From Gammaproteobacteria bacterium RIFOXYD12_FULL_61_37 (GTDB taxonomy: Bacteria; Pseudomonadota; Gammaproteobacteria; Chromatiales; Chromatiaceae), in contig MGZB01000025.1 of assembly GCA_001801995.1 (NCBI GenBank), forward strand, positions 1 through 64,000: DNA of 64,000 nucleotides. Reading direction: 5' to 3'. Below are positions 31,783-63,511 of the stretch, one piece after another. The notes below the pieces were generated by a model. It ran no database searches, was not told the origin of the DNA, and was given only the letters and a program-made list of their open reading frames with translations. Position 1 is the stretch's first letter. Every line of letters starts with the position of its first letter. Both the position numbers and the translations under genes were made by a program.

Positions 31783-31945
31783 ATCTAAATTCATCGTTTA
31801 ACCGCAAAGGGCGCGAAGGAACGCAAAGAACACAGGGGATTACCTGCGTTTTACCCTTCACCCGGAAGCTGAACTCCTGCGGGGATAGGCCAGTGATTTT
31901 CTTTGCGTTCTTCGCGACCTTTGCGGTTGAAAGGCGGTTTTTAGG
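31783..31945. repeat. MITE-like inverted-repeat element, copy 1
   Basis: Fills the whole gap between the wrbA stop and the next ATG. The left end reads CTAAATTCATCGTTTAACCG and continues AAAGGGCGCGAAGG; the right end is the reverse complement with scattered mismatches, ending TTGCGGTTGAAAGGCGGTTT then TTAGG. The central ~70 bases (31840-31905) differ from the other copies. No gene inside, although one strand is open in frame. Confidence 0.9.
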
Positions 31946-41943: not shown

Positions 41944-42109
41944 CCTAATTTCCTCATTTAACCGCAAAGAACGCGAAGGAACGCAAAGGAATTCATTGGC
42001 TTGTCTAGGTTCCGCCCCTGACCAGGAAGGTGGGGGCACAGACAAATGCATCGGAGGGGTTTCCTTAGCGTTCTTTGCGTCCTTTGCGGTTGATAAGAGG
42101 TTTTTAGGC
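41944..42109. repeat. MITE-like inverted-repeat element, copy 2
   Basis: Exactly fills the gap between the nadC start codon and the FKBP stop codon. The ends are CCTAATTTCCTCATTTAACCG and its partner GGTTGATAAGAGGTTTTTAGG. The inner ~70 bases are homologous, in reverse orientation, to those of copy 3 (51758-51923). Confidence 0.92.
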
Positions 42110-48862: not shown

Positions 48863-49615
48863 TTACCCCGCGTCCTGATCCAGCACGCCGGGGAAGGGCT
48901 CTGCCCGAAGCAGCCGGAAGGCGCGGACGCTGGTCTGGATATAGCCGGCGTCGTCGAGTTTTCTCAAGATGCGGCTGAGGGTCTCGGGGGTGATGGCCAG
49001 GTAGCTGGCCATGTCTTCCTTGGTCATGGGCAGGGGGATCTCGTCCTCGACCCCCGTGAGCCGGGCGCGGGAGCGCTCGGCGAAATCCTGGAGAAACCCC
49101 ATGACGCGCTGTTCGGTGGTGCGCTTGCGGACGTTGACCTGATGGATCGTATCGTTGCGCGCCCGCCGGTTCAGTACCTGGAACAGGCCGCGCGTCAGTT
49201 CGGGGTGTTTGGCGCAGAGGGTCTCCAGCTCGGCGGTGCGCAATTCGCAGATCCAGGCGGTCTCCAGGGCGATGGCGTCGTCGGTGTGGCTGTGCTCGCC
49301 TAGGGCCTCGACCCCGAAGAGATCGCCGCGCAGATAGAAGCCGGTGACCTGGAGGGCGCCGGTGCAGGTGGTGTATTCGGTCTTCACCGAGCCCGAGGTG
49401 ATGGCGTAGAGGGCGGAGAGGGGATCACCGGTCCGGTAGATGCGGTCGCCCGGCTGATAAGGCCCCCGGCAGCGGATGGTGCAGACCGCGTCCGGCAGTT
49501 GCTGCTCCTCGATACCGGTCTTTCTCAGGAGGTGCCGAAGGTCGCAGTTATGGCAGGCATGCTTCGCCTTGACGAGATGCAAACCCTGGCGGGACCTGGA
49601 CCCTGTTCGCTTCAC
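48863..49615 (-). CDS. FNR/CRP-family transcriptional regulator linked to nos genes
   Basis: A 250-residue regulator starting at GTG 49615. It has a CNB-like sensing domain (PYQPGDRIYRTGDPLSALYAI) and a C-terminal winged helix with MTKEDMASYLAITPETLSRIL. The recognition helix keeps E-xx-SR, as in E. coli FNR, so binding to TTGAT-type half sites is expected. Sensor cysteines are Cys21, Cys24 and Cys123 (AWICEL, aligned with Cys122 of FNR), but the position matching Cys29 is leucine; Cys45 and Cys49 lie nearby. The protein may sense oxygen with an altered cluster, or nitric oxide as DNR/NNR proteins do. It closes the nos cluster, 10 bases after the trihaem cytochrome. Confidence 0.88.
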   Translation of the reverse strand: MKRTGSRSRQGLHLVKAKHACHNCDLRHLLRKTGIEEQQLPDAVCTIRCRGPYQPGDRIYRTGDPLSALYAITSGSVKTEYTTCTGALQVTGFYLRGDLFGVEALGEHSHTDDAIALETAWICELRTAELETLCAKHPELTRGLFQVLNRRARNDTIHQVNVRKRTTEQRVMGFLQDFAERSRARLTGVEDEIPLPMTKEDMASYLAITPETLSRILRKLDDAGYIQTSVRAFRLLRAEPFPGVLDQDAG

Positions 49616-49624
49616 GGCTTGGCC

Positions 49625-50431
49625 CTAGGGTGAAATCGTTTCCCGGAGATCGGAGAGGGTTCGATGTACTCCGTGGCAGCGGGAGCAGAGGTTATAGCCC
49701 AGATGGCCCAGAAGCTTGCCTGTCTCCTCCTTGTCGCCCTTGGTCAGGGCGGTATCCAGCTCGGCCAGCTTCTCCTGGATGGCCGCGCCCAGGATGCGCT
49801 CCTTGGGATAGGCGTCCAGGTGGCATTGATCACAGGTCGCGCCCAAATCGAGGAGCTGTTGCTTGAGGGCGGAGGCGGCCGTCTTGGCCGGTTCCCAACG
49901 GCCGTCCTCGGCCCCGATCTTGATCCGGTTCACCTGGTTGGAAAGCCCCTCCATGGCCTTGCGGAATGGCTGCCCCTGAACTTGCAGGGGGCCGAAATCA
50001 GGTCCCCGCATCAGAAGGGCCGTGGCCGCCTGATGATCCAGATGACAGGAGTCGCAGCTCCGCCCCAGCTTGGTCAGGACGGACTTCACGGCGGCGAGGT
50101 CGCCGGCGGAGGCCGCCTGTTCGAGGCCGCCCAGGGCGTCGAGATCGGCCTCCACGCCCCACTCCGGGACCATCTCCGGGATCTGGCGGTAGGATTGGGC
50201 GTACTCCGCCACCCACTTCTTCACAAGCTCGCCCTCCCCTGCCCCGGCGTATTCCTCGATGGCCTGTTGCGAGCGGCGCAGGTTGAACATGGTATGCAGC
50301 CAGACCTGCCGCTTGTTGGCCGGTTTGTACCAGTGTTTGATGGATTCGGGCGGCGCCTCCAGGCCGGACGGTCCGGCGGCGGTGGCCAGGAGCGGCAAGA
50401 CGGCGAGGATCAGGAGGTATTTGGTTTTCAC
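49625..50431 (-). CDS. Exported trihaem c-type cytochrome of the nos cluster
   Basis: A 268-residue periplasmic protein with a signal peptide (KTKYLLILAVLPLLATAAG) and three CxxCH haem sites: CDSCH, CDQCH and CSRCH near the C-terminus. Between the haem motifs it is mostly helical, with an N-terminal segment (WLHTMFNLRRSQQAIEEYA) resembling those of cytochromes that bundle helices. It may pass electrons to NosZ or another periplasmic reductase. I start at GTG 50431; an upstream frame runs into the previous gene. It is not part of the nos gene set I know from Wolinella or Pseudomonas. Confidence 0.85.
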   Translation of the reverse strand: MKTKYLLILAVLPLLATAAGPSGLEAPPESIKHWYKPANKRQVWLHTMFNLRRSQQAIEEYAGAGEGELVKKWVAEYAQSYRQIPEMVPEWGVEADLDALGGLEQAASAGDLAAVKSVLTKLGRSCDSCHLDHQAATALLMRGPDFGPLQVQGQPFRKAMEGLSNQVNRIKIGAEDGRWEPAKTAASALKQQLLDLGATCDQCHLDAYPKERILGAAIQEKLAELDTALTKGDKEETGKLLGHLGYNLCSRCHGVHRTLSDLRETISP

Positions 50432-50453
50432 TGCCTTTATCCCAGAGCGGCGT

Positions 50454-50933
50454 CTACTTGAGGGTGTAAAAACGGAAGGGGGCGACCCAGAGCCCCCCGG
50501 GGGTCTCCACCATGACCCGCGCCTCCCAATCCATCCGCTTGCGCACACAGACGGGGATACGGGTGGTGCCCGCGAAACCTTGCCCGGCCACCGGTTTCAG
50601 CTCCGGCCGGTTGAAGCCCATGTTCATGCCGATACCAGCGAAATCGACCAGGACCTTGCGTGCCTGCAACCCCTCCAGTTCCACCTCGATCCGGATCGGC
50701 TCGATCAGGGGTATCTCCCTCGGCAGTATCCGGAACACGACCCCCTCGCCGCCGGGGAAGGTCAAACGACAGTCGCCCGCCCGCAGGTCGCAGGCAGGAT
50801 CAGGGGAAAGCGAATGGCTGATCTTTGGAAAGAGGATGGGCCAGGCGACATAGACGGCGCCGCCCGCCAGGATCGCCAAGGCCAGGACCAACAAGGGGCC
50901 GAGCCAGCGGGGGCCGGCGGTTGAACCCGTCAC
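50454..50933 (-). CDS. Small membrane-anchored protein in the nos operon
   Basis: A 159-residue protein with one N-terminal membrane helix (about 12-32) and a beta-rich periplasmic domain containing two Cys (PACDL...GDCRL) and a GIGMNMGFNR motif. I recall uncharacterised gammaproteobacterial proteins with this GMNMG pattern; the Met/Cys content would suit copper binding, but that is a guess. It begins with GTG overlapping the nosY stop (GTGA), so it is translated with the ABC permease and probably serves the same copper-site assembly. Confidence 0.72.
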   Translation of the reverse strand: MTGSTAGPRWLGPLLVLALAILAGGAVYVAWPILFPKISHSLSPDPACDLRAGDCRLTFPGGEGVVFRILPREIPLIEPIRIEVELEGLQARKVLVDFAGIGMNMGFNRPELKPVAGQGFAGTTRIPVCVRKRMDWEARVMVETPGGLWVAPFRFYTLK

Positions 50934-51757
50934 GGCAGATCACCCCTTCGAAACCATTGATAGCCGATCCAGGCCATCAGGGTTCCCAGCAACAGCGGGT
51001 AGGCCAAGGCATAGACCATGAAGCCCAGGTTACCGAAGTGGTCGAGGATCACATAGGCTGACGGCCCCAAGAGCACCAGTTGGGGATCGAACAGCATCAT
51101 GCCGGCCGTGCGGAAGACTTGCAGGGGATTGGCCAGGGCGATGCCGATGACCAGGTTCGGCGAGGCGTACTGCTGGACCATGACCCCCAGCAGGATGAGA
51201 TCGAGGAACAGCAAAAGCCCGAGCCAGATGACGAAGGCGGTGCCCTGGGCCACATCGACGCTGCGCGCCACCGAGGAGACCAGCATGCCGATGCCGAGGA
51301 AGCACCAGGTGAGCACCATCAGCAGGGCGCTGTAGTAGAGAAAGATCCGCCAGGGCAGCTCGACCCCGGTCAGCCCGCCCCAGAGCATGGCGCCCCCCAT
51401 GGCCAGGAGGACCGGGGTATAGACCATGACGAAGCGCCCGAGCATCTTGCCCCAGTACCAGGCCGAGAGTGAGACCGGCAGGGAAAGCAGATACTCGAAG
51501 ACCCCGCTCTCCCGGTCCCCGGAGAGGGAACGGACCGTGGTCACCAGCACGAAGACGGGCAAGATGGCCATGCTCAACTGGAGATAGGTCAACATCAGCC
51601 GTGACAGACCGGTGAAGCCCATGACGCGGGATTCGGTCAGCCCCAGGGCGAACAACAGCACCAGGATGCCGCCGAAGACGAAGGTATAGACGGCAAACCA
51701 GCGCGCCCGCAGGGATTCCAGGATGTCGGTCCAGGCCGTCAAAAAGAGATGGTTCAT
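50930..51757 (-). CDS. nosY: ABC-2 type permease NosY
   Basis: The membrane half of the NosFY transporter needed to assemble the copper sites of N2O reductase. The 275 residues show six hydrophobic segments and the ABC-2 pattern, with SLSGDRESGVFEYLLSLPVS after the second helix and a final YPLLLGTLMAWIGYQWFRRGD. It lies downstream of nosL with a MITE-like element in the 166-base gap. The ATG is immediately next to the element's CCTAAAAACCTC end, so the ribosome-binding site is supplied by repeat sequence. Confidence 0.92.
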   Translation of the reverse strand: MNHLFLTAWTDILESLRARWFAVYTFVFGGILVLLFALGLTESRVMGFTGLSRLMLTYLQLSMAILPVFVLVTTVRSLSGDRESGVFEYLLSLPVSLSAWYWGKMLGRFVMVYTPVLLAMGGAMLWGGLTGVELPWRIFLYYSALLMVLTWCFLGIGMLVSSVARSVDVAQGTAFVIWLGLLLFLDLILLGVMVQQYASPNLVIGIALANPLQVFRTAGMMLFDPQLVLLGPSAYVILDHFGNLGFMVYALAYPLLLGTLMAWIGYQWFRRGDLP

Positions 51758-51923
51758 CCTAAAAACCTCTGTTTAACCGCGAAGGACGCAAAGAACGCTA
51801 AGGAAAACAATCCGATGCCTTTGTCCATGCTCACCCCTTCCTGGTCAGGAACGAAACCTCGACAAGTCAATGAAATCCTTTGCGTTCCTTCGCGTCCTTT
51901 GCGGTTCAATGAGGAAATTAGGT
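51758..51923. repeat. MITE-like inverted-repeat element, copy 3, inside the nos operon
   Basis: Lies exactly between the nosY start codon and the nosL stop codon. The ends CCTAAAAACCTCTGTTTAACC and GGTTCAATGAGGAAATTAGG are inverted; the core is homologous to copy 2 in the opposite orientation. In the mRNA it would form a long hairpin separating nosL from nosY. Confidence 0.92.
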
Positions 51924-52532
51924 TCATGGTTGCTTGTTCTCCCGGATGCTGGGTAATTTGGCCTGCTCGGCGTCGGCTTTGGCATCCTGCGTCGCCCTAC
52001 CGCCTCCATCCCTGGAGGCGTTCTGCTCCAGGTGGGCGCCGTGGCTGTTGAACTTCTCCTCCTGCTGGTAGACCAAAGCCCTCGCCTGTTCGAAGTCGAG
52101 GGCATCCGGCAGGGGTTCGTCCTGGGCGCCCAGGCCATACTCCATGGGAGTGACCTTGCCCGGCACGTAATAGGCGGTGCGGGCATCGATCCATTCGCCG
52201 TCCCGGTGGTCGTTGACCCAGATCTCCACGCCGGGGGCCTCGCGCCACTCCTGCTGATCCAGCCAGATGATCGCACAGCCGATGTCGTCGAATTTATGGA
52301 CCTGACTGCGCCCGGCCGGATCGGGCGTGTAACGGATCTGGGCCGAGAAATTCCGCGCGCTCAGGACCATGCGGCAGCGTTCGCAGGCGTCCCGGTCCCA
52401 ACGCACATCGGCCGGCCCCGTCCCCGGCTCGCCGGAGCAGGCGGTGAGCAGGAAGATCAATGGCAAAAGGAGTACGGCTAGTCGCCCTAAAGGGCGACCT
52501 ACGGAGATGGGGCAAGGCATTGGTTCAACCAT
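51924..52532 (-). CDS. nosL: Copper-binding lipoprotein NosL
   Basis: An outer- or inner-membrane lipoprotein that donates copper to N2O reductase. The 202-residue precursor has a lipobox LLTAC with lipidated Cys32, and the copper-binding signature C-ER-C-R-M (Cys50, Cys53, Met55). The core continues AQIRYTPDP...KFDDIGCAIIWL and the DARTAYYVPGKVTPM segment typical of the family. I use ATG 52532, with AAGGA 8 bases upstream, overlapping the nosF stop. The signal peptide has an extra N-terminal stretch VGRPLGRLA encoded by a REP-like hairpin. The tail (about 150-202) is charged and low in conservation. Confidence 0.9.
   Translation of the reverse strand: MVEPMPCPISVGRPLGRLAVLLLPLIFLLTACSGEPGTGPADVRWDRDACERCRMVLSARNFSAQIRYTPDPAGRSQVHKFDDIGCAIIWLDQQEWREAPGVEIWVNDHRDGEWIDARTAYYVPGKVTPMEYGLGAQDEPLPDALDFEQARALVYQQEEKFNSHGAHLEQNASRDGGGRATQDAKADAEQAKLPSIRENKQP
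52479..52501. repeat. REP-like hairpin inside the nosL signal-peptide codons
   Basis: GTCGCCCT / AGGGCGAC with an AA spacer, plus outer TA / CTA. On the nosL strand it reads TAGGTCGCCCTTTAGGGCGA and encodes VGRPLGRL. It belongs to the GTAGG-C-GGCC hairpin family seen at 41064 and 46354, here in coding sequence. Confidence 0.75.
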
Positions 52533-53388
52533 GGCCCGCATCCTTCATTTCGAGGCCGGCCAGAAGCCCGGCGTAACGGGACAACATACCCAGGAACCGC
52601 AAGCGGTCGGGACCGGCCACGCTCCCCTCCCATTGCAGGCCGTCCGGCGCTGCGGTGAAACCCCACTGGCCGACGGCGCGGGCGAAGGCGGCCTCCGGTC
52701 GGTTGATGCGGACGCGGCAGGCGAGGCGGCTGTTCAGGTCCACATGGTCATCCACCTTGTCGTCCAGCACCACCTGGCCTTGGTCGAGCTCGATCACCCG
52801 GTTAACCAGGGTGGCCACCTCGTCCAGACGGTGGCTGGAGATGAGCATGACCGCCTCCTTGTCACGCTTTTCCGCCAGCAATTCGAAGAAGACCCCGCGC
52901 GCCTCCGGGTCCAGGTTGGCCGCCGGTTCGTCCATGATGAGCAGGCTGGTGTCCCTGCCCAGGGCTGCGGCAATGAGCAATTTTTGTTTCTGGCCGCCGG
53001 AGAGCCGGACGAAGGGCTGGTGGCGGTTCTGGTCGATGTTCAGGCCCAGGCGATGGGCCACGGCGACAATGCGGGCGGGATCGCTGCCGGCCACATCGGC
53101 GACGAAGCGCACCAACTGCCCCACCGGCATCTTCAGCGGCGGCGGCAGTTGCGGCACGAAGCCCACCAGACGCAGGACCTCGCAACGCTGCTTGCGCGGG
53201 CACTTTCCGTCCACGCGGATCTCGCCGCCGAAGTGGTATTCGCCCAGCAGGCAGCGGATCAGGGTGGTCTTGCCGGCCCCGTTGGAGCCGATCAGGGCCA
53301 CCCGACGGCCCGGCTCCAGCTCCAGATCGAGCCCCTGGATCACCTCGCGCTTGCCGAAGCCCTTGCGTAGCCCTTGGATACTGATCAT
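52525..53388 (-). CDS. nosF: ABC transporter ATPase NosF
   Basis: Energises the NosFY transporter for NosZ copper-site assembly. The 287-residue protein shows Walker A GSNGAGKTT, signature LSGGQKQKLL, Walker B LLIMDEPAANLD and H-loop ISSHRLDEV, followed by a C-terminal accessory region. The stop lies within the first codons of nosL, so translation is coupled. The cysteine-bearing CPRKQRCEVL after Walker A is unusual among ABC ATPases and could relate to metal binding, but this is only an observation. Confidence 0.94.
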   Translation of the reverse strand: MISIQGLRKGFGKREVIQGLDLELEPGRRVALIGSNGAGKTTLIRCLLGEYHFGGEIRVDGKCPRKQRCEVLRLVGFVPQLPPPLKMPVGQLVRFVADVAGSDPARIVAVAHRLGLNIDQNRHQPFVRLSGGQKQKLLIAAALGRDTSLLIMDEPAANLDPEARGVFFELLAEKRDKEAVMLISSHRLDEVATLVNRVIELDQGQVVLDDKVDDHVDLNSRLACRVRINRPEAAFARAVGQWGFTAAPDGLQWEGSVAGPDRLRFLGMLSRYAGLLAGLEMKDAGHG

Positions 53389-53435
53389 CTCGCTCGCTTC
53401 TCAAGTTTAGAGTTTGTAATTCTCGACATAGCCCT

Positions 53436-53470
53436 TGTAGGGTGGATAAGCGAAGCGCATCCACCCTACA
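53436..53470. repeat. Intergenic hairpin between nosF and nosH
   Basis: Perfect 12-bp arms TGTAGGGTGGAT / ATCCACCCTACA with an 11-base loop, of the kind often scattered in proteobacterial genomes. There is no U-tract on either side. It lies in a 108-base gap on the nos strand. Confidence 0.8.
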
Positions 53471-53496
53471 GGGACACCGTTTTTTTATCCCGGATC

Positions 53497-54474
53497 TTAT
53501 TGCAATTTCTTCAGGCCCAGGACCTCGAATTTAAGCGAACCCGTGGGGCAGGTGTCCACGCAGAGGCCGCAGCGGGTGCAGTCGGCCCCCACCGGGACAT
53601 CGACGGAAGTGGCGCGGCCCTTGATGGTCATGTCCAGGACATGGGGGACCATGCAGACCTTGCGGCAGTTGCCCTCGTGGTGGCAGTCCTTCAGGTTGTA
53701 CCTGACCCGCAGCGGGGAAATGCTGCCGACGAAACCATAGGTCAATCCAATGGGACAGACGTAGCGGCACCAGGCCCGGCGCGAGACGAAGATCTCGAAC
53801 AGCAGCAGGGTCACTACCCAGAGCAGAGCCAATCCGGGACCGTAGATCAGCGCCCGGCTGAGGATGCCGGTGGGGGAGATGGTCTCGAACACCGTATAGC
53901 CCGTGACCAGCGCCAGCAGGGCGAAGATGACGTAGAAGAGGGTGCGCGCCCCGCGATGGAAGGTCACCGGCTTGATCCACTTCTTCGCCTCCAGCTTCAG
54001 GTGCAGGGCCTCGGCCCATTCCGCCACCAAGTGATAGGGGCAGACCCAGGAGCAAAAGCTCCGCCCGCCCACCAGTATCCAGAGAATGAAGACGGTGACG
54101 GTGCCGATCAGCAGGTTCAGCACCACATGCTTGAAGGCCAGCATCACCTGCAAGGCGGAGTTGAGATCGGCCATGTGGAAACCGATGAAGCGCGAGGCGG
54201 TCAGCGCCCCCTCCAGCAGTTGCACGTCGAAGTAGTAGGAGACCACGAACAGCAGATTGACCAGAATCAGGGTGAGCCAGCGCCGCTTGCGCCAGAAGTG
54301 GCGGCGCTCCGACTGGTCGTGGGCCTCCGCGATGGCCCGCAGCTCCTCCTTGGTCTCCTTGCGGCCCCTTTTGAAGGTGTGGATCTCCCGCGCCTCCGGC
54401 GAATAGGCATCCGGCGCGGGCTTGCCCGGATCGATCCCGAGCATTTGCTTGATGGAAGCGGTGAAGTAACTCAT
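53497..54474 (-). CDS. nosH: Membrane ferredoxin-type protein NosH (NapH/MauN family)
   Basis: Part of a quinol-to-periplasm electron module. The 325-residue protein has four predicted membrane helices and two membrane CxxxCP-type motifs (SFCSWVCPYH and WCRYVCPIG). It also has cysteine clusters DCHHEGNCRKVC and DCTRCGLCVDTCPTG for two Fe-S centres. The correct start is ATG 54474 (MSYFTASIK), 4 bases after nosG. NapH-like proteins pair with NapG-like proteins, as here. This pair is a feature of clade II nos clusters and replaces NosR. Confidence 0.92.
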   Translation of the reverse strand: MSYFTASIKQMLGIDPGKPAPDAYSPEAREIHTFKRGRKETKEELRAIAEAHDQSERRHFWRKRRWLTLILVNLLFVVSYYFDVQLLEGALTASRFIGFHMADLNSALQVMLAFKHVVLNLLIGTVTVFILWILVGGRSFCSWVCPYHLVAEWAEALHLKLEAKKWIKPVTFHRGARTLFYVIFALLALVTGYTVFETISPTGILSRALIYGPGLALLWVVTLLLFEIFVSRRAWCRYVCPIGLTYGFVGSISPLRVRYNLKDCHHEGNCRKVCMVPHVLDMTIKGRATSVDVPVGADCTRCGLCVDTCPTGSLKFEVLGLKKLQ

Positions 54475-54478
54475 GTTT

Positions 54479-55330
54479 CTAACCTCGGCCCCGGCGGGTA
54501 TCGGCGGTCTCGTCCAGGACGATGACGATGGCCGGGGGCTCGGTGGGGCAGACCATCTCGCAGACGCCGCAGCCCACGCAGCCGTCATGCACCAGCGGCT
54601 GTTTGGCCTTACCCTTGCCCAGGGGCTCCAAAGAGATAGCCCGGTGCGGCGGGCATTGGTTCTTGTCACCCGAGGGGGGCTTGCCTGCCGCGCATTGACC
54701 GATGCGTATCTCGATGGGGCACTGGCGCAAGCAGAGGTCGCAGAGTTCCAGGTCGTAGGGGTGATCGGCGATGGGGACGGCCTTCCAGCGGTCCAGCTCC
54801 TCATAGCGCAACACCCCCTTGAAATCCGGCCCGCGCGCTTGGCCCTTGAAGCCCTTGCCCTGGATGGCGAGGCACTTCTCCGGCCGCGTCAGCCGGGCGA
54901 AACCCATGCGGGACTGGGCGGGGTAATTGATCTCATGGGTCAGGGCGCCGGTTGGACAGGCAAGTACGCATTGCAGGCCGTCGCAGGAGAAGTCGCAGGC
55001 CTGGGCGCGGGCCTCGATGAAGGGGGCGCCCAGACCGAAGCCCTCGTCGATGTCGGAGAGCTTGATGGCCTCGACCGGGCAGACCTGCACGCACTGGCCG
55101 CACTTGATGCAGGCGGCGAGGAAGTCGCGTTCGTTGAGATCGCCGTCGATCAGCGCCCCCGGCGGACGCAGACGCTTCATCTTGCCTTCGCCCACGGGGA
55201 TGTAGCCCAGCAGGCTGATCAGCAGAACACCGCCCGCCAGCGCCCCGGTACGCAGGAATTCCCGCCGGGTCTGCTCGCGCCGCTTGGGTGAAACGGGCGG
55301 TTGTTTCTTTTTGGTGTCTTCGGTGCTCAT
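54479..55330 (-). CDS. nosG: Four-cluster ferredoxin NosG (NapG family)
   Basis: An exported iron-sulfur protein of 283 residues. A twin-arginine signal TRREFLRTGALAGG (Arg22-Arg23) is followed by 4Fe-4S motifs CIKCGQCVQVCP, CDGLQCVLACP, CDLCLRQCP and CVGCGVCEMVCP. With NosH it should take electrons from the quinol pool. The start overlaps the nosD stop (ATGA), and nosH follows after 4 bases. NapG and NosG cannot be separated by sequence alone; the nos context decides. Confidence 0.93.
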   Translation of the reverse strand: MSTEDTKKKQPPVSPKRREQTRREFLRTGALAGGVLLISLLGYIPVGEGKMKRLRPPGALIDGDLNERDFLAACIKCGQCVQVCPVEAIKLSDIDEGFGLGAPFIEARAQACDFSCDGLQCVLACPTGALTHEINYPAQSRMGFARLTRPEKCLAIQGKGFKGQARGPDFKGVLRYEELDRWKAVPIADHPYDLELCDLCLRQCPIEIRIGQCAAGKPPSGDKNQCPPHRAISLEPLGKGKAKQPLVHDGCVGCGVCEMVCPTEPPAIVIVLDETADTRRGRG

Positions 55331-56670
55331 GGCTTGCCCATCGATTGTCTAAGCGTCTCCAGGGCGTCGAAAGCGGGCTTGGCGCCATCGGCACCCTTGG
55401 TCCCGGTCTCCTTGGTCACCAGGGATTGGCGGTGCAGCGCCTCGGCATTGCCCGCCAGCATCACCGGCCGCTCGTCCCGCAGCATCAGGTCCGGCGAGGT
55501 GAAAGGGGCCAGGCGTTCCAGGAAGTCGATCACCTCCAGCATCGGGCTCCCCTTGAAAAACTGGGCATCCTTCACATCCATCCAGAGCCGGTCCGCGTAG
55601 GCGTATTGCTCGTGGGGCCGGTCGCCGATACCGTCCTCGTCGCGGTCAAAGCCCTGGTACTCATCCCAGTGGTTTCCTCGCCAGTGGTTGCGCTTGGCGC
55701 TCTTGCCGCCGCTGACGGCCACCTGGGTGAGATTTCCCTTGAAGAGGTTGTCCTCGAAGACGTTGCCGGTCCAGTCGTTGAGGAAGTGGACGCCGATGGC
55801 ATTGTAGGCGACCAGGTTACGGCGGACGCGGTTGGTGGTCTCCGGCTGAAAGGGCGAAACGTCGAAATCGAGCCCCTTGGCGCAATAGAGGATCTCGTTG
55901 TTGTCGATGTCCACGTCGCTGGTTTCCTTGAAACCGATGCCGACCCCGGTGGCCCCGATGGCGCGGTGGACGCGGTTGCCGCGCACCTTGATGCCGTCGC
56001 TGTACATGATGTAGATGCCGACCGAGTTGTCGCGGAAGTCGTTGTCCTCCACCAGGTTGGTTTGAGAGTACATGAAGTGGAGCGAATAGCGACCACCGGT
56101 GGCCTTGTTGGCGCGGAGGACATTGTCGCGGGAATACCAGACCACGATGTCCCGCGAATTGATCACCTGGTTCTCTTCGATCTTGTTGTTGAAGCTGTAC
56201 CAAAGGCGAATGGCATCGCCTCGCACCCCCAGCTCCACGTCCTTGGAGGAGATATGGTTGCGGCGCACCAGATTGTTCTTGGACTGTTGCAGGTCGATGC
56301 CGAAGAGGCTGTTGTCGATGCGGTTGTCTTTGATGACGTTGAAATCGCCGCGCACCTGGATGCCCGCATCCAGGTCGTTGTGGGAGCTGCCAGAGTTGGT
56401 GAGACGAAGGTTCCTCACCGTGGCGCTGTCGGTGTCCAGCAGGAGCACCGTTCCCTTGCCGCCGCCATCGATGGTCACCTGGTTCTGGCCATCGAGCACC
56501 AGGGGCTTGTCGATGACCACCGGCCCGGCATAGACGCCGGGCGGCGGGATCAGGGTGCTGTTGGGTTCCGCCGCCTCTATCAACTTTTGCAGGGAAGGCA
56601 GCGCCTGCGCGTCCGCCCTGCCCCAGAGACAGAACAGCAGCAGCGGCAGAAGCGACAGGCGCGGGTTCAC
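55327..56670 (-). CDS. nosD: N2O reductase maturation protein NosD
   Basis: A periplasmic right-handed beta-helix protein that works with NosFY to build the NosZ copper sites. The 447-residue precursor has a signal peptide (ending RADA) and a long run of parallel-beta-helix (CASH-type) repeats rich in Asn: NSLFGIDLQQSKNNLVRRN, NSVGIYIMYSDGIKVRGNR, YCAKGLDFDVSPFQPETTN and similar. It is coupled by ATGA overlap to nosG and lies 4 bases after the upstream membrane protein gene. Confidence 0.94.
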   Translation of the reverse strand: MNPRLSLLPLLLFCLWGRADAQALPSLQKLIEAAEPNSTLIPPPGVYAGPVVIDKPLVLDGQNQVTIDGGGKGTVLLLDTDSATVRNLRLTNSGSSHNDLDAGIQVRGDFNVIKDNRIDNSLFGIDLQQSKNNLVRRNHISSKDVELGVRGDAIRLWYSFNNKIEENQVINSRDIVVWYSRDNVLRANKATGGRYSLHFMYSQTNLVEDNDFRDNSVGIYIMYSDGIKVRGNRVHRAIGATGVGIGFKETSDVDIDNNEILYCAKGLDFDVSPFQPETTNRVRRNLVAYNAIGVHFLNDWTGNVFEDNLFKGNLTQVAVSGGKSAKRNHWRGNHWDEYQGFDRDEDGIGDRPHEQYAYADRLWMDVKDAQFFKGSPMLEVIDFLERLAPFTSPDLMLRDERPVMLAGNAEALHRQSLVTKETGTKGADGAKPAFDALETLRQSMGKP

Positions 56671-56674
56671 GGGC

Positions 56675-57835
56675 TTACTCCACCTCTCCCCGGCGCAGTT
56701 CCTTGCGGCGGAGGATGCCCAGGGCGGCGGTCACCAGCGACAAGACCAGAATCATGCCGAATCCCCAATAGGGATAGGAGTGAGTGGCGAACTGGGCGAC
56801 CTTCCCCTGGCCGAAGACCGTGGGCATGAAGGGCTTGACGGTAAAGGCCCCCATGGCGTTCATGCTGTGTCCGTACCACCAGAGCCAGGCGGCATATTCG
56901 ATGATGAAGAACACCGGCAACGCGGCGGGTACGATAATCAGCAGCCAGTAGAGCAGACTGCCCGTCTTTCCAGCCCCGTAGATCAGCAGCAGCATGGCGC
57001 CGATGATGCCGAAGAAGACGATCTGAAAGGCCAGCCCCATCCCGGCCACCATGGGATCGATCTCGGCACGGTTGTTGAAATACCTGCCCAGGCTCTTGTC
57101 GTAGTGCCACAACATCACCTGGCTGTTGCTGCCATTCCAGGCCTCTGCCTTGCCGCCCTTGCGTTCCTGGTCCTTGTCGAAGGTAATGCGCAGGCTCTGG
57201 ATCAGGTTGCCCTTCGATTGCGACTCTTCGCTACTGGCCTGTTTCTGGCCGCTCTTGGCCAGTTCCGCCCTGAGCCGTTCGACGATGCCGCCGCCGATCT
57301 CGATCTCCTGATCCTTCTCGCCCGCCGCCTGGTCCATGGAGGTAATCAGTGCCTCCACATAGCCCTCGCTCTGGTACTTGAGACCGTCCTTGGCATAGAA
57401 GGTCAGGCCCATCCAGCCGATGATGAAACCGAAACCCAGGGTAAGGACGCCCTGCCGCAGCCGGGGCCGGTTACAGGCAAAGCCCAGCACCATGACCCCG
57501 AGCATGGAGACCAGGAAGGGCGACAGGGCGCGTTCGACCACGCCGCCCGCCGCGATGGGATACATGCCCACATAGTGGTTGATGGTGTCCATCTCGTGGA
57601 CGCAATCCAGGGCTTCCTTCTCGCTGATCTCGGCCTTCTCCACCTTCTTGCAGCCGTTGAAGACGCCGTTGAAGTGGAAATGGATGCGCACCCCGTCGGG
57701 GAAGGCCTCGGCTGGATAGTTGGGCGCGGTGAGCGATACCCACCAGATGGGGGCGTAGTAGATGACCGCCAGCAAGGCCACGGCGATCAAAGCAAAGCCC
57801 ATGGGAAGCAGGCTGTTAGGCCGGGCTTGGTTCAT
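56675..57835 (-). CDS. Multi-pass membrane protein at the NosB position
   Basis: A 386-residue protein with about six membrane helices and a soluble middle. One helix follows residue 10, others lie near 95-140 and 270-385, and a hydrophilic region spans about 145-260. Two Cys lie in the first extracytoplasmic loop (FNGCKKVEKAE and DCVHEMD). In clade II clusters such as that of Wolinella a membrane protein NosB sits between nosZ and nosD, and this gene has that place and topology, so I call it NosB-like by position; sequence recognition alone is weak. The start is ATG 57835, directly next to a MITE-like terminal sequence. Confidence 0.75.
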   Translation of the reverse strand: MNQARPNSLLPMGFALIAVALLAVIYYAPIWWVSLTAPNYPAEAFPDGVRIHFHFNGVFNGCKKVEKAEISEKEALDCVHEMDTINHYVGMYPIAAGGVVERALSPFLVSMLGVMVLGFACNRPRLRQGVLTLGFGFIIGWMGLTFYAKDGLKYQSEGYVEALITSMDQAAGEKDQEIEIGGGIVERLRAELAKSGQKQASSEESQSKGNLIQSLRITFDKDQERKGGKAEAWNGSNSQVMLWHYDKSLGRYFNNRAEIDPMVAGMGLAFQIVFFGIIGAMLLLIYGAGKTGSLLYWLLIIVPAALPVFFIIEYAAWLWWYGHSMNAMGAFTVKPFMPTVFGQGKVAQFATHSYPYWGFGMILVLSLVTAALGILRRKELRRGEVE

Positions 57836-58000
57836 CCTAAATTCCTCGTTTACTGCTGGGAAATCGTAGGATGCAGTGAGGCACGAACCGCATCGCTCGC
57901 GGAGTTGACCTCGACAGATGGGGTTCGCCAGGCTCACCGCATCCTACGTCAAATCACTAAAACTGATTGTCGATTTCCCACGCCGGAGCCTGGGAACGAT
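57836..58000. repeat. Composite intergenic repeats between cytochrome c and the NosB-like gene
   Basis: Three different elements in a row. First, a solo MITE-like end CCTAAATTCCTCGTTTA (57836-57852). Second, an inverted repeat CGTAGGATGC...GCATCCTACG with 18-bp arms (57865-57882 and 57931-57948; 16 of 18 match). Third, a GTTCCCA-type REP (57971-58000) related to the units at 4954 and 36602. No gene and no U-tract. Confidence 0.8.
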
Positions 58001-58008
58001 CAAATCGA

Positions 58009-58755
58009 TCAATAATCCGGGTTCTTGTAATCCTTGGAGGGAGCCAGGTCCTTCTTGGGAACAGGTATCCAACTGCCGTAGTTGATGACGTGTTTCATGT
58101 CGTCGTCGGTGAATTCCTTGATCTGCTTGACCATGTCCGGGTTGGCGTTGCGGCGCTTGCCGTCGCGGACCCACTGGAACTGCCGCAGGATGTACTCGTA
58201 ATGCTGGCCGTTGATGCGGGGGAAGAACTTGTCGTCGTCACCCAGGCCTTCCTCGCCATGGCACTTCACGCAGTTGTCGGCGTAGAGTTTCTTGCCCTTT
58301 TCGAACTCGGGGGTGCCGGGGCCCCAGGGTCCCTTGCCGTGGTCGGGATTCATGGGCAGCTTGGCAATGTAAGCGGTCACGTCGGCCACCAGTTGCGCCG
58401 GTGCAACCTCTCCGTGCTTGTAGCCCGCTGCGGCCATGATTTGATCGTCCAGGGCGAAGGGGTACATGGTGGGGTTGTCGCGGTTCTTTGCGCGGATATC
58501 GGCCAACTGCTTGATCAGGACATTGCGGTGCTGTCCGGACAGTTGGGGGAAGGTGCCGTCCTTCAGGCCCCAGCCTTCCAACAGGTGGCAGGCGGAGCAG
58601 ACTTCATAGACCGCGATGCCGCGGTCGCGGTCTGGTTTCAGCAGCATGGCCTCGTCCTTCTCGCCGCCGCCCTCGTTCCAGGCAGCCAGTGCGGGTGCGG
58701 AGAGGGCGAGGGCCATGGCGGCGATCAGTGCGTTCTTGCGAATTGGGAATTTCAT
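58009..58755 (-). CDS. Dihaem cytochrome c of the nos cluster
   Basis: A periplasmic 248-residue protein with a signal peptide (MKFPIRKNALIAAMALALSA...) and two CxxCH sites, CSACH (near 53) and CVKCH. The second half reads like a class I cytochrome with a late MKHVINYGSWI helix. This is the NosC2-type donor place in clade II clusters. The true start is ATG 58755. A perfect FNR-type palindrome lies 91 bases upstream (58846-58859), so it may have its own promoter inside the nos cluster. Confidence 0.9.
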   Translation of the reverse strand: MKFPIRKNALIAAMALALSAPALAAWNEGGGEKDEAMLLKPDRDRGIAVYEVCSACHLLEGWGLKDGTFPQLSGQHRNVLIKQLADIRAKNRDNPTMYPFALDDQIMAAAGYKHGEVAPAQLVADVTAYIAKLPMNPDHGKGPWGPGTPEFEKGKKLYADNCVKCHGEEGLGDDDKFFPRINGQHYEYILRQFQWVRDGKRRNANPDMVKQIKEFTDDDMKHVINYGSWIPVPKKDLAPSKDYKNPDY

Positions 58756-58845
58756 CGGTGCTATCTCGCATTCATTGAATAGGATTCGGCCCATCCCTCG
58801 ACGGACCTGTGGTTTGCAGGCTATCGCCCAGGGAGGGGCCGAACC

Positions 58846-58859
58846 TTGATTAGAATCAA
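58846..58859. promoter_or_regulatory. FNR-type palindrome TTGATTAGAATCAA
   Basis: A perfect TTGAT-N4-ATCAA match, the consensus for FNR-family regulators. It sits between the two cytochrome c genes, 91 bases before the dihaem cytochrome ATG and 16 bases after the upstream gene's stop on the minus strand. Confidence 0.8.
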
Positions 58860-58875
58860 GCCTTATCCGAGCGGG

Positions 58876-59193
58876 TTACTGGGTTGCCAGCCAGTCGGCG
58901 ATGGCCGCCATTTCCTCGTCGGAAACCAGGCCCATGACGCCCTTCATGGCAGCGGCTTGGCCGTTGGCGCGGGCGCCGCTCTTGATGTCCTTCATCTGTT
59001 GCAGTGCGTATCCGGCGCTCTGTCCCGCCAGCCGGGGATAGACGGGCAGGATGGGGGTCTTGGCGTCCTTGCCGTGGCAGGACCAGCAGGTCTTGGACTG
59101 GAAGAGCGCGGCGCCGTCCAGGGCCATGGCGTTGCTGCTCAGGGCCAGGGGGAGAATCAGCGCGACCGCGATGCTCAGGGTTTTGGATTTCAT
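58876..59193 (-). CDS. Monohaem class I cytochrome c of the nos cluster
   Basis: A 105-residue precursor with a signal peptide (ending AMA) and one haem site CWSCH. It then has the class I pattern LPVYPRLAGQSAGYALQQMKDIKSG and a likely axial Met in GVMGLVSDEEM, finishing IADWLATQ. It is placed directly after nosZ, where NosC1-type cytochromes are found in clade II clusters, and probably feeds electrons to CuA. Confidence 0.92.
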   Translation of the reverse strand: MKSKTLSIAVALILPLALSSNAMALDGAALFQSKTCWSCHGKDAKTPILPVYPRLAGQSAGYALQQMKDIKSGARANGQAAAMKGVMGLVSDEEMAAIADWLATQ

Positions 59194-59292
59194 GACAATA
59201 CCTCAAATATTCAATGGGTTCAGGTTCCAATACGGAAGAGGGGGCTCTAGGAGCCCCCTCAGTCTAGTCAGCGGTTGATGGGATCAACAGCT

Positions 59293-61602
59293 TTATTTCT
59301 TGACCTCGACAGCCCCGTTCTGGTCCAGGTGAGTCTTGGCACGCAGGCCCAGGTCGGCGGTCTTGACTTGGTACTGCCACCACTGGTTGGCCCAGAGCAT
59401 GGCGTTCTGCCAGTCCTGCTTGGCGGCGGCCTCTTCGGCCTTCTTCTTGGCCTCTGCCCCAAAACCAAGCTGCTCGACGGCATCTTCCACCAAGGCCCCT
59501 ACAGTCGGGAAGTCCTTGAAGTTACGCGCGGTGATGTAGGCCACCACCGAGTCGATAACGGCCTGGGTATCGACGTTGGTCTTTACCTGCTTGTCGTAGT
59601 CGGCCTGGGTGTAGGCTACGCCTTCCTGCATGGCGGCGGCTTCGGCCTTGTAGCCCTTCGGCTGCACCAGCAGATAGCCCTGCATTTCCAGATGAAGCGC
59701 GGAGCAGAACTCGGTGCAGTAGTAAGGGAAGACACCGGCCTTTTCAGCCACGAAGGTGGTGGAGGAGGTCTTGCCCGGCTCGACGGAGAGCTGGACGTTC
59801 TGTCCGTACATGGCGAAGCCGTGTACTTCGTCCTGCGCGCGTTCCATGTTGGTCAGGTGGATCTTGACCGTATCCCCTTCCTGGGCCTCGATGATCTCAG
59901 GGGTGATGTGGGAACGGATCAGGGTGCCGTAGACCTCCGTGGTGCACTTGCCAGCGGCGTCACAGGTGCGCTCGGTCTTCTCGCGGCCGGCGCGGGTGGC
60001 GAAGGCCGATTTGGCATTGGCACGGGAATCCCAGCCGGACTGGTAGCGCACTTCGGGCTTCAGCTTACTGGCTGCGATGGAGACCGCATAGTGGGGCTCG
60101 CCCAGGGGCAACGGCATGTCGTACAGCAGTTCCATCTTGTCGCCGCTGATGTCGATCAACTGGTGGTTCTGCGGATGCAGGGGACCCACCGGGTTGAAGC
60201 GGTCGATGGAGAGCTTGTTCAAGGCCACCAGGTACTTGCCGGCCGGGGTCTTGGTATCGCCTTCCATCGCCATCAGATGGCCGATGTTGTAGTGGATGTG
60301 GAGTTGATCCAGAACCTTGCCTTGGCAGTAGTCCCACTTGGTGACCATGGAGTCCACGTAGATGGAGGTGTAGGCCACGCAGGGCTTGGAGTCGTACTGG
60401 GTGTGCAGCGGACCCAGGCCAACCTGGACCTGCTTGTCCAGCGCGTCCTTGAGGGCGATGATCGGAAGGCCATAGGGGTCCTTACCCTCGAACTTCTTGT
60501 CCGCGATGGCCTTCTGGATCTTTTCGAAGCTGTAGACCCAGGTATGGCTGTCCAGCTTGCCGGAGACGATGATGCGGGTACCGTCCGGGGTCACGTCGGC
60601 GCCATGGGGGGACTTGGGCTCGGGGATCAGGTAGACCAAGCCTTCCTGAACGGCCTGCTCCATGGTGATCAGATACTGGCCCTTGATCTTTTTGACCTTA
60701 CCGGCCTTGACCAGCTCTTCAGCCTTCTTCCAGTTGGTCACATGGAGGAAGTCGGTATCCTTGGAGGAGCAACCGGCCTCGAAGGGAGGACGACCGCGCT
60801 CGATGCCGCCCACGTAGCGTTCGGAGCAGAAGGAGTTGGTGAAGCCCCAGCCGTAGGAGGGACCCTTACCGGCGTCGGAGAGGTCCTGGGAATAGGGCGG
60901 CAGCTCGAAGGTAAAGGAGTTTTCGGAATCGATGCGCCCCTTATCCTTGTCGAATTTCCAGTAGGTCACGCCGCCGCGGTACTTGTCGTTGAACTTCTCC
61001 AGCGGCACGAAATCATTCTCGAAGGGTGCTGCGTACTGCGCGGCATCCATGATGTATTCGCTGTTGGGGGTAAAGAAGGACCCGCCGTGAGAACTCTTGA
61101 AGAAGGGGTGGACCACGATCTGCTTGGTTTCGAAGTCGTGCAGGTCAATGATGGCGATGCGGGGGTTGGCCTTGTCGTTGATCGCCAGCCAGCGTCCATC
61201 GGTCACACCGTCGGTCTCGGAGATAGCCGGGTGGTGGGTATCGCCGTAGGTGATGTCCTTGCCGTTGATCTTGCCCTGGGCCAGTACAGCCTTGGACTCG
61301 TCGTCGAAGCCGTAACCCTGCCAGGGCTCGGGGGTAAAGACGCCGATGTACTTGAGGATGCGCATGGAGGGTATGCCATAGACGATCACCTGGCCGCTCT
61401 GGCCGCCGGAACTGAAGGTGATAAACTCGTCACGGCCCCCGGTGGGGGTATAGGTCTTGGCCGCGGCCAGGATGTCTTTCTCGGTCAGGCCACGGGCCTT
61501 CATGACTTCTTCGAGCTGCCCCTGGGCAAAGGCGCTGCTCGCCATGCCGGCGCTCAACGTCATGCCCACGAGAAGCGAAGTAATTCGCTTGGTTGTCTTC
61601 AT
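59293..61602 (-). CDS. nosZ: Nitrous oxide reductase, clade II (Sec-exported)
   Basis: Reduces N2O to N2 in the periplasm. The 769-residue precursor begins with a Sec-type leader lacking twin arginines (MKTTKRITSLLVGMTLSAGM...AFA). CuZ histidines are visible in DTHHPAISETDG, PKSPHGADVTPDG, GKLDSHTW, GPLHTQYD, HYNIGHLMAMEGD and LHPQNHQL. The CuA domain has C-TEF-C-SAL-H-LE-M (about 629-640), with a further His in DEVHGFAMYG. A C-terminal extension of about 115-120 residues without a CxxCH haem site follows CuA. Start ATG 61602 has GGGAGA upstream. Sec leader plus the cluster layout mark it as clade II. Confidence 0.96.
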   Translation of the reverse strand: MKTTKRITSLLVGMTLSAGMASSAFAQGQLEEVMKARGLTEKDILAAAKTYTPTGGRDEFITFSSGGQSGQVIVYGIPSMRILKYIGVFTPEPWQGYGFDDESKAVLAQGKINGKDITYGDTHHPAISETDGVTDGRWLAINDKANPRIAIIDLHDFETKQIVVHPFFKSSHGGSFFTPNSEYIMDAAQYAAPFENDFVPLEKFNDKYRGGVTYWKFDKDKGRIDSENSFTFELPPYSQDLSDAGKGPSYGWGFTNSFCSERYVGGIERGRPPFEAGCSSKDTDFLHVTNWKKAEELVKAGKVKKIKGQYLITMEQAVQEGLVYLIPEPKSPHGADVTPDGTRIIVSGKLDSHTWVYSFEKIQKAIADKKFEGKDPYGLPIIALKDALDKQVQVGLGPLHTQYDSKPCVAYTSIYVDSMVTKWDYCQGKVLDQLHIHYNIGHLMAMEGDTKTPAGKYLVALNKLSIDRFNPVGPLHPQNHQLIDISGDKMELLYDMPLPLGEPHYAVSIAASKLKPEVRYQSGWDSRANAKSAFATRAGREKTERTCDAAGKCTTEVYGTLIRSHITPEIIEAQEGDTVKIHLTNMERAQDEVHGFAMYGQNVQLSVEPGKTSSTTFVAEKAGVFPYYCTEFCSALHLEMQGYLLVQPKGYKAEAAAMQEGVAYTQADYDKQVKTNVDTQAVIDSVVAYITARNFKDFPTVGALVEDAVEQLGFGAEAKKKAEEAAAKQDWQNAMLWANQWWQYQVKTADLGLRAKTHLDQNGAVEVKK

Positions 61603-61668: not shown

Positions 61669-61682
61669 TTGACTATTGTCAA
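61669..61682. promoter_or_regulatory. FNR/DNR-type palindrome upstream of nosZ
   Basis: TTGACTATTGTCAA is a perfect TTGAC-N4-GTCAA palindrome 67 bases before the nosZ ATG, in the nosZ/CWC-gene gap. One base per half site departs from the FNR consensus, as in many DNR/NNR-type sites. Confidence 0.75.
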
Positions 61683-61954: not shown

Positions 61955-62118
61955 CCTAAATCCTGCATTTAACCGCAAAGGACGCAAAGAACACGAAGAA
62001 AAACGATGGGTTGCGATCGTTCATTTACTCATCGATCCGGTTTGAGAAGACCTATGGGTAAGCTGTTGTATTCTTGGCGTACTTTGCGCCCTTTGCGGTT
62101 AGATTTGAGAAATTTAGG
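61955..62118. repeat. MITE-like inverted-repeat element, copy 4
   Basis: Lies between the CWC gene and the GTPase gene. Ends CCTAAATCCTGCATTTAACCG and GCGGTTAGATTTGAGAAATT then TAGG. The central ~70 bases differ from copies 1-3. It is followed by 28 bases with the AGAGGA ribosome-binding site of the next gene. Confidence 0.9.
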
Positions 62119-62146: not shown

Positions 62147-63511
62147 GTGCCCACGCCGAAATCGAGAGAGCCCGTCCGTGTCCTCATCATGGGCGCTGCG
62201 GGGCGTGATTTTCACAACTTCAACCTCTGCTACCGGGACGATCCCCGTTACCAGGTAATCGCCTTTACCGCCGCCCAGATCCCGGAGATCGCCGGGCGGC
62301 GCTACCCGCCGGAGCTGGCGGGAGAGCGTTATCCGGACGGCATCCCCATCCTGGAGGAATCCGAGCTGGAAGAGATCTGCCGGGAACAGGCGGTGGACAA
62401 GGTCGTCCTGGCCTACAGCGACATCAGCCACGAGCAGGCAATGCACCAGGCCTCCATCGCCCTGGCGGCCGGGGCCGACTTCGAGATCCTGGGACCCCGG
62501 CGCACCATGCTCCATGCCGCCGTCCCCGTGATTGCCGTCTGCGCCGTGCGCACCGGCTGCGGAAAATCCCAGACCTGCCGCTGGCTATCCAAGCGGCTGA
62601 AGGCGCGGGGACTCAAAGTCGCCGTGATCCGCCACCCCATGCCCTACGGCGACCTGCGCCGCCAGGCCGTTCAGCGCTTCGCCGAGCGGGCCGACCTGAG
62701 GCGCGCCGATTGCACCATCGAGGAGCGGGAGGAGTACGAACCCCACCTGGCCCTCGGCAATGTCCTCTACGCCGGGGTCGATTACGCCGCGATTCTGAAG
62801 CGGGCCGAGGCGGAGGCCGACATCATTCTCTGGGACGGCGGCAACAACGACTTTCCCTTCATCCGCCCCGACCTCCACATCGTCCTGGCCGACCCCCTGC
62901 GGCCGGGCCACGAGACCAGCCACCATCCCGGCGAGGCCGTGCTGCGCATGGCCGATATCGCCCTGGTCGCCAAGACCAACTCCGCCGCCGACGCCGGTAT
63001 CCGCCAAGTCATCGACAACATCCGCCGCATCAATCCCCGCGCGGCCATCGTTCGCGGCGCCTCGCCCGTAGCGGTGGATAATCCAGCTCTGATCCGGGGC
63101 AAACGGGTGCTGGTGGTGGAGGACGGCCCCAGCATCACCCACGGCGGCATGGCCTATGGCGCGGGCTACATCGCCGCCACCCAGGCCGAGGCCGGAGAGA
63201 TCATCGACCCCAGGCCCTACGCCCTGGGCGAGATCGCCAAGATCTACGCCCAATACCCCCACATTGGTCCCGTGCTCCCGGCGGTGGGCTACCACCCCGC
63301 GCAACTCCAAGCCCTGGCCGACACCATCAACCGCGCCGGGGCGGACCTGGTCGTCTCCGGCACCCCCTGCGACCTGGCCGCCCTGATCGATATCAACAAG
63401 CCCCTGATCCAGGCCCGCTACGAATTCGCCGAACTGGGCGAGCCGGGCCTTGGGGCGCTGGTTGATGCGTTTCTGGAGGGAGAGTTCCACCCCTTAATAA
63501 AGCCGAGTTAG
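62147..63511 (+). CDS. Cyclic 2,3-diphosphoglycerate synthetase-like GTPase/ATPase
   Basis: A 454-residue cytoplasmic protein with an N-terminal Rossmann-like domain (VRVLIMGAAGRDFHNFN, 10-26) and a P-loop region AVRTGCGKSQTCR near 133-145. There is a switch-like segment DIILWDGGNNDFPFIRPD and a C-terminal part with SGTPCDLAALI. This order matches the family annotated as cyclic 2,3-diphosphoglycerate synthetase, known from thermophilic methanogens; bacterial members are of unknown substrate. The Walker A first glycine is alanine, so activity needs testing. Translation starts with GTG, with AGAGGA 7 bases upstream. It ends by overlapping the stop of the convergent racemase gene by 4 bases. Confidence 0.8.
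   Translation: MPTPKSREPVRVLIMGAAGRDFHNFNLCYRDDPRYQVIAFTAAQIPEIAGRRYPPELAGERYPDGIPILEESELEEICREQAVDKVVLAYSDISHEQAMHQASIALAAGADFEILGPRRTMLHAAVPVIAVCAVRTGCGKSQTCRWLSKRLKARGLKVAVIRHPMPYGDLRRQAVQRFAERADLRRADCTIEEREEYEPHLALGNVLYAGVDYAAILKRAEAEADIILWDGGNNDFPFIRPDLHIVLADPLRPGHETSHHPGEAVLRMADIALVAKTNSAADAGIRQVIDNIRRINPRAAIVRGASPVAVDNPALIRGKRVLVVEDGPSITHGGMAYGAGYIAATQAEAGEIIDPRPYALGEIAKIYAQYPHIGPVLPAVGYHPAQLQALADTINRAGADLVVSGTPCDLAALIDINKPLIQARYEFAELGEPGLGALVDAFLEGEFHPLIKPS

Follow-up and report, generated by a model that had tools for sequence, protein, structure and literature searches.

We analysed a gene cluster for nitrous oxide (N2O) reduction in a stretch of 64,000 nucleotides (the window) of contig MGZB01000025.1 of Gammaproteobacteria bacterium RIFOXYD12_FULL_61_37, whose genome comprises 3.47 Mb in 57 contigs. 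The cluster occupies the minus strand (61602-48863) in the order nosZ-cyt-cyt-B-D-G-H-F-L-Y and is followed by three extra genes, encoding a small protein referred to as the GMNMG protein, a trihaem cytochrome and a divergent regulator of the FNR family. The cluster itself represents a variation on an established type of N2O-reduction system; its interest is that the GMNMG protein and the trihaem cytochrome represent two protein families which are unnamed in the libraries searched. Literature searches on nos genes, the trihaem cytochrome and copper chaperones listed no description of either family. Our best reading of the GMNMG protein, guided by its predicted structure, is that of a membrane-anchored, periplasmic copper-delivery protein, a general part that would have been recruited to nos. 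The trihaem cytochrome is best read, from its gene neighbourhoods and distribution, as a carrier or nitric oxide (NO)-handling cytochrome of a denitrification island which may have been relocated behind nos. Biological removal of N2O is known to depend mainly on NosZ, which stops working if its copper supply breaks down, and for that reason a candidate copper protein encoded behind nosY in many gammaproteobacteria is worth attention. We tentatively propose that the trihaem cytochrome founds an undescribed family of nirS/nor-linked periplasmic double-bundle cytochromes of Gammaproteobacteria, which would be a missing carrier of electrons or NO, and that the GMNMG protein is the first member of a copper-delivery family, as yet without a name, that serves NosZ and other cuproenzymes. 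If this is true, the cytochrome family would fill a gap in the movement of electrons or NO in denitrifiers of sediments and of animal symbioses.

With moderate confidence, we favour a joint explanation of a clade II nos operon combined with general copper delivery by the GMNMG protein, a trihaem carrier or NO buffer from a denitrification island and tuning by an FNR-type regulator. The operon would be activated via FNR/NNR-type boxes upstream of nosZ and of the gene for the second cytochrome. By analogy with other clade II systems, NosG and NosH, NosB and the two cytochromes would pass electrons to NosZ, and NosDFY and NosL would mature its copper site. The GMNMG protein would hand Cu(I), probably via its invariant M-x-M, cysteine and methionine residues, to NosL, SCO1/PCuAC or NosZ. 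The trihaem cytochrome, after export, would most likely serve as an electron carrier to, or a NO buffer for, the nitrite- and NO-reduction steps, its gene having come to sit behind nos in the window's genus. The divergent FNR protein encoded at the end of the cluster probably tunes the operon.

The three extra genes are closely packed. The stop codon of nosY and the start codon of the GMNMG gene overlap in the sequence GTGA (50930-50933), a coupling that the earlier note had pointed out and that is readily visible. The GMNMG and trihaem genes are separated by 22 bp and the trihaem and FNR genes by 9 bp, and these gaps suggest a single transcript; promoter and terminator scans gave nothing informative. 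The whole arrangement including the three extra genes recurs in L058, the only other genome of the genus searched. Relatives were searched in a set of 92 genomes, 25 of which (window's genome included) have a nosZ that scores above the clade II cut-off. The GMNMG gene lies directly behind nosY in 16 of these 25, and the 16 belong to 15 genera. That the extra genes lie together by accident and have no function in common is very unlikely in our view. The GMNMG and trihaem genes do recur separately elsewhere and all three were seen together in a single genus, but both the short gaps and the recurrence of the GMNMG gene behind nosY across genera speak against such an accident.

The GMNMG gene (50454-50933, minus strand) is proposed to encode a copper-delivery protein on the basis of alignment, predicted model and neighbourhoods. 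The predicted model has a predicted local distance difference test (pLDDT) score of 92.6 and consists of a long N-terminal helix, which we interpret as anchoring the protein in the membrane, followed by an Ig-like beta sandwich. Residues that are invariant in an alignment of 33 sequences include C48, C55, M103, M105, C129, and M134. A Pfam scan of 33 members returned three single matches at chance level (E 0.03-0.08) and no copper family, and a sequence search of solved structures returned two chance rows only. In Foldseek one row was found at E < 0.001, a sulfite dehydrogenase with a TM-score of 0.34. The best VIA rows included Helicobacter pylori CrdA with silver (Z 10.7, root-mean-square deviation 2.4 over 98 residues). 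The copper proteins FetP, P19, and FtrA (Z 8.2-10.1) appeared among other sandwiches, and chain C of the cbb3-2 NOH complex (9g6b), which we take to be CcoH, was matched at Z 8.3. The predicted model resembles CrdA/CopC-like and FixH/CcoH-like copper proteins in its Ig-like sandwich and loop methionines, and the protein differs from them in having no sequence family match, an N-terminal helix and three invariant cysteines. In CrdA, which has no cysteine, methionines are presumed to be the ligands of Cu(I) (PMC9182242). PCuAC and SenC are implicated in the maturation of oxidase CuA, and NosL serves CuZ (PMC6530538). Because of the likeness of the model to CrdA, the presumed Cu(I) binding of CrdA through methionines and the copper roles of PCuAC, SenC and NosL, we read the GMNMG protein as a likely copper-delivery protein.

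The gene was matched in 55 of the 92 relatives and in 31 of the 397 genomes of a phylum sample, 12 of the latter at 69 bits or more. A neighbourhood set of 61 GMNMG loci besides the window contained nosY nearby in 16, SCO1 in 21 (within 2.5 kb of the GMNMG gene) and PCuAC in 21 loci; any of these was present in 32 and both nosY and SCO1 in seven. The SCO1/PCuAC neighbours were verified for one example (PF02630 and PF04314). Roughly one in three GMNMG loci has these CuA chaperones, SCO1/SenC and PCuAC, as neighbours, and their folds are unrelated to that of the GMNMG protein.

Co-occurrence was counted in the 57 of the 92 relatives that belong to the same family, in which any listed GMNMG match was counted as present, as were nosZ-II fragments in G002 and G010. 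The GMNMG gene is present in all 25 family genomes with nosZ-II (the two fragments counted) and in 24 of the 32 without. The earlier note had regarded the GMNMG protein as a candidate for an undescribed part of the N2O pathway; a role in NosZ maturation is indeed plausible, but specificity for N2O does not hold, given its presence in these 24 genomes. A tree was constructed without L224, which is too short, and contained 17 nos-linked copies: that of the window, those of 15 other nosZ-II genomes and that of G025, in which nosZ was not found. The nos-linked state required 11 changes on this quick, weakly supported tree, at least two of them forced by well-supported branches, compared to a mean of 15.1 after shuffling; a value as low was reached in 2 of 500 shuffles, indicating that the nos-linked copies are partly clustered and not one clade. 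A nos-specific GMNMG clade was accordingly not found on this tree. That the protein is a maturation factor dedicated to CuA or CuZ of NosZ is a rather unlikely alternative. Its occurrence in every nosZ-II genome of the family, the overlap of its start with the nosY stop and a clustering exceeding that of all but two shuffles fit such a factor, but its wide occurrence in genomes without nosZ-II and the scatter of the nos-linked copies over the tree do not. Because these copies are not one clade, a general rather than a dedicated copper-delivery protein is preferred.

Some observations weigh against general copper delivery. The DUF4785 sandwich 4kh9, which to our knowledge is not a copper protein, ties with the CrdA match at Z 10.6. 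Furthermore, 29 of the 61 GMNMG loci adjoin neither nos nor SCO1/PCuAC, and no shared context was seen by eye in the 12 of these that were viewed. The window's genome itself carries a SCO1 gene on contig C18, with a PCuAC-like neighbour (by eye), and no GMNMG gene is present there.

The trihaem cytochrome (49625-50431, minus strand) was characterized by alignment, predicted model and neighbourhoods. Its three CXXCH motifs are invariant in all 22 aligned sequences, and the predicted model (pLDDT 82.3) consists of two four-helix bundles. All 22 members match the cytochrome c' family (PF01322) at E 0.001 and have in common with it a four-helix bundle whose last helix carries CXXCH. Cytochrome c' has a single haem and a single bundle, whereas the trihaem protein has three haems and two bundles and matches the end of the profile only (44.6 bits for the window protein with a gathering cut-off of 26.5, profile positions 86-119 of 121). 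Sequence comparison with solved structures likewise returned the ends of cytochromes c' and b562 and a few chance rows. No Foldseek row was obtained at E < 0.001, and VIA rows to cytochromes c' (Z 10.7-11.0) do not stand out from those to helical bundles in general. The invariant residues H46, M48, M87, M160, and H256 are possible sixth haem ligands, in which case electron transfer would be a likelier role than the binding of NO. In an alternative that we consider somewhat unlikely, the cytochrome c'-like haems of the protein would bind NO and buffer it, thereby shielding NosZ and other metalloenzymes. The family-wide PF01322 match is in line with it, as are the producers and consumers of NO among the neighbours described below and a hemerythrin-like gene (by eye) which adjoins the trihaem gene in L169, a locus without nir/nor; the VIA likeness to cytochromes c' is no better than that to the other helical bundles listed. 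Set against NO buffering are the short span of the profile match in the window protein and the candidate sixth ligands.

The trihaem gene was found in 25 of the 92 relatives (two doubtful, one split). A search of genome_contigs yielded 217 stretches that were confirmed in one scan, the best 80 of which were kept (the 80 named loci). Their carriers include Sedimenticola, Ca. Thiodiazotropha and symbionts of the tubeworms Lamellibrachia and Escarpia, and the nearest named contig belongs to a marine gammaproteobacterial metagenome-assembled genome (JAHJDE010000136.1). The host of the cluster would accordingly be a Sedimenticolaceae-like gammaproteobacterium. The 80 named loci contain nir genes in 53 cases, nor genes in 22 and a CuA-type haem-copper oxidase gene, which we presume to be sNOR-like, in five. 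Genes for nos, defined here as nosZ or nosL and nosY together, are present on three: L156, L176 and, in the window's genus, L098 (same contig as L058). A nir, nor or nap gene lies within 4 kb of the trihaem gene in 54 of the 80 named loci and in 16 of the 22 loci of relatives, which are partly the same contigs, compared to 2 of the 61 GMNMG loci, a loose control as this set includes genomes without denitrification genes. Where norC lies within 4 kb, the trihaem gene is divergent from it in 16 of 17 cases. In the window's genome, contig C16 carries nirS-like, nirF/N-like and norB genes.

In the family genomes, haem-d1 genes were scored as present at 200 bits or more, the weak or stop-bearing trihaem matches of G005 and G056 were counted as absent and the split gene of G017 as present; the p-values are descriptive only because the genomes share kinship. 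Trihaem and haem-d1 genes occur together in 21 genomes, the trihaem gene alone in one, haem-d1 alone in nine and neither in 26 (p = 2e-7). The corresponding numbers for trihaem and nosZ-II are 17, 5, 8, and 27 (p = 9e-5). Among the haem-d1-bearing genomes, the trihaem gene is present in 16 of 22 with nosZ-II versus 5 of 8 without (fuller counts 16, 5, 6, 3; p = 0.67). In the phylum sample, trihaem matches of at least 100 bits occur in five genomes, all five of which have haem-d1 genes; nosZ is of clade II in three of these, below the cut-off at 486 bits in one (presumably clade I) and partial with 135 bits in one. The idea of an N2O-specific trihaem gene, brought forward in the earlier note, was set aside because the link with nosZ-II is gone among haem-d1 genomes, small as these numbers are, and the usual neighbours are nir and nor.

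The related suggestion, that the trihaem cytochrome serves specifically to supply NosZ with electrons in the window's lineage, is quite unlikely. In both genomes of the genus its gene does directly follow the GMNMG gene within the nos cluster, in two genomes of other genera (G037, G017) it lies about 2-3 kb upstream of nosZ, and 17 of the 22 family carriers have nosZ-II when fragments are counted. Against a donor to NosZ stand the lost association among haem-d1 genomes, the five carriers without nosZ-II, the nir/nor neighbourhood of most named loci and the two cytochromes of the cluster, which may already fill this role. In G011, a 26-kb part of a single contig carries nosZ, haem-d1 genes, the trihaem gene and norB, and this arrangement, together with those in G037 and G017, suggests how a trihaem gene could end up behind nos.

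The reading of the trihaem protein as a denitrification-island cytochrome has its own counterevidence. No nir, nor or nap gene was found within 10 kb in 24 of the 80 named loci and in 5 of the 22 loci of relatives, and 19 of the 80, nine of which are about 19-21 kb long, have no denitrification, EB_dh or SCO1 marker. The carrier G030 has no haem-d1 match, and among nosZ-II genomes the trihaem gene is present in 16 of 22 with haem-d1 versus 1 of 3 without, a comparison of low power (p = 0.23).

Further observations were made on trihaem loci. In the trihaem carriers L065 and L099-L177, a NirS-like haem-d1 protein scores about 390 bits with PF02239, and its gene frequently adjoins one with an EB_dh domain; the latter is found on 38 of the 80 named loci, and other NirS-like matches score about 500 bits. 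In L070 (same contig as L140), L143, L150, and L151, the trihaem gene is near a CuA-type haem-copper oxidase pair, which we take to be possibly sNOR, and near CtaA-like and SCO1 genes. Broken trihaem genes are present in G017 (C145, 11283-12034, two pieces) and G056 (C2, 53138-53691, with stops), indicating loss in some genomes.

The regulator gene (48863-49615, minus strand) encodes cyclic nucleotide (cNMP)-binding and Crp-type helix-turn-helix domains. The window protein aligns with FNR proteins of solved structure, those of Escherichia coli and Aliivibrio fischeri. Three cluster cysteines out of four are kept, as is the E-xx-SR recognition helix (PETLSR in the alignment), and the protein differs from the FNR oxygen sensor in having a leucine for the third N-terminal cysteine. 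The closest relative from another genus also has this leucine. Identity is 91% within the genus and does not exceed 49% in the other relatives, and the genome of the window contains three further homologues at E ≤ 1e-20.

Boxes of the type TTGAY-N4-RTCAA occur three times in the window (0.14 expected), twice in the nos cluster: an FNR/NNR-type box (TTGACTATTGTCAA, 61669-61682) lies 67-80 bp upstream of the nosZ ATG, and a second FNR-type box (TTGATTAGAATCAA, 58846-58859) lies upstream of the gene for the second cytochrome (c2). When one mismatch was allowed, the count in the window was within chance. Upstream regions shorter than 250 bases were excluded from the counts among relatives, in which pieces of one gene could be counted separately. 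A recount for nosZ with one gene per locus and without L058 (247 bases) showed boxes in 18 of 20 loci. Boxes were present in 25 of 25 norC upstream regions, at least six of which stem from the same contig fetched twice, and in 11 of 101 trihaem upstream regions, redundant contigs included; the overall background is about 0.035 per 410 bp. The regulator may bind the FNR-type boxes of the cluster. In Wolinella, clade II nos genes are reported to be under FNR-type control, and the same has been proposed for Nitrosophilus (PMC11539149).

The remaining genes confirm the description of the cluster in the earlier note as a clade II nos set on one strand with three extra genes, one of them a regulator. 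The nosZ gene (59293-61602) encodes a Sec-dependent clade II nitrous-oxide reductase (TIGR04246, 852 bits, cut-off 625; PF18764), which scores 365 bits with the twin-arginine translocation (TAT)-type model (cut-off 625). Its reading frame is open from 61641, and the ATG at 61602 was judged the likelier start. It is followed, likewise on the minus strand, by genes for a monohaem cytochrome c (c1; 58876-59193; PF00034, 44 bits) and a dihaem cytochrome c (c2; 58009-58758; PF00034, 63 bits in two stretches). The membrane protein in the nosB position (56675-57838) was named by position and similarity to relatives, and has no match in Pfam or NCBIfam models. In tblastn searches it shares 56-61% with same-position proteins in 12 loci and 90% within the genus, and matches L090 in broken pieces at 43-69%. 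Next are nosD (55327-56670; TIGR04247, 401 bits, cut-off 300), nosG for a NapG-like ferredoxin-type protein (54479-55330; NF007012, 126 bits, below the cut-off of 269; PF00037, 57 bits), NapH-like nosH (53497-54498; TIGR02163, 248 bits, cut-off 213), nosF for an ATP-binding cassette (ABC) ATPase (52525-53388; PF00005, 86 bits), nosL for a copper chaperone (51924-52541; PF05573, 28 bits, cut-off 24) and nosY for an ABC-2 permease (50930-51757; PF12679, 74 bits). Among the ten cluster proteins scanned, the best score with the NosR model was 27 bits, for NosH, with a cut-off of 1000.

The clade II cluster of Wolinella succinogenes has the order nosZ-B-D-G-C-C-H-F-Y-L. The cluster in the window shares with it a Sec-type NosZ, a NosB-position protein, NosDFY, NosGH, NosL, two cytochromes and the absence of NosR. 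It differs in that the cytochromes precede nosB, nosL precedes nosY, and the GMNMG, trihaem and FNR genes are added at the end. The differences in order are not peculiar to this genome. Among the relatives, every locus with both nosZ and nosY (16 in all: L058, L080-L092, L095, and L096; two have an extra cytochrome) shows the order nosZ-cyt-cyt-B-D-G-H-F-L-Y, and five more loci, cut by contig or stretch ends, match it as far as they can be read. In the phylum sample, nosZ exceeds the clade II cut-off in seven genomes including that of the window. Three of the other six share the order (L264, L265, and L266), L267 and L268 carry the cytochromes after nosH, and L263 agrees through nosD and is then cut. 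An unusual gene order was therefore rejected, and the Wolinella order is no standard by which the cluster would be odd because relatives and some phylum genomes share that of the window.

The window also contains four elements resembling miniature inverted-repeat transposable elements, with inverted AACCGCAAAGGxCGCAAAG arms (eight found, 0.02 expected), at 31800-31928, 41960-42091, 51775-51906, and 61971-62100, spaced 9.8-10.2 kb apart. The third fills the gap between nosL and nosY and the fourth lies upstream of nosZ. Divergent from nosZ on the plus strand (62147-63511) is a gene for a 454-amino-acid protein with a weak LpxK-like match, and directly 3' of the FNR gene (46407-48770, minus strand) is a gene for a PAS-GGDEF-EAL cyclic di-GMP protein.

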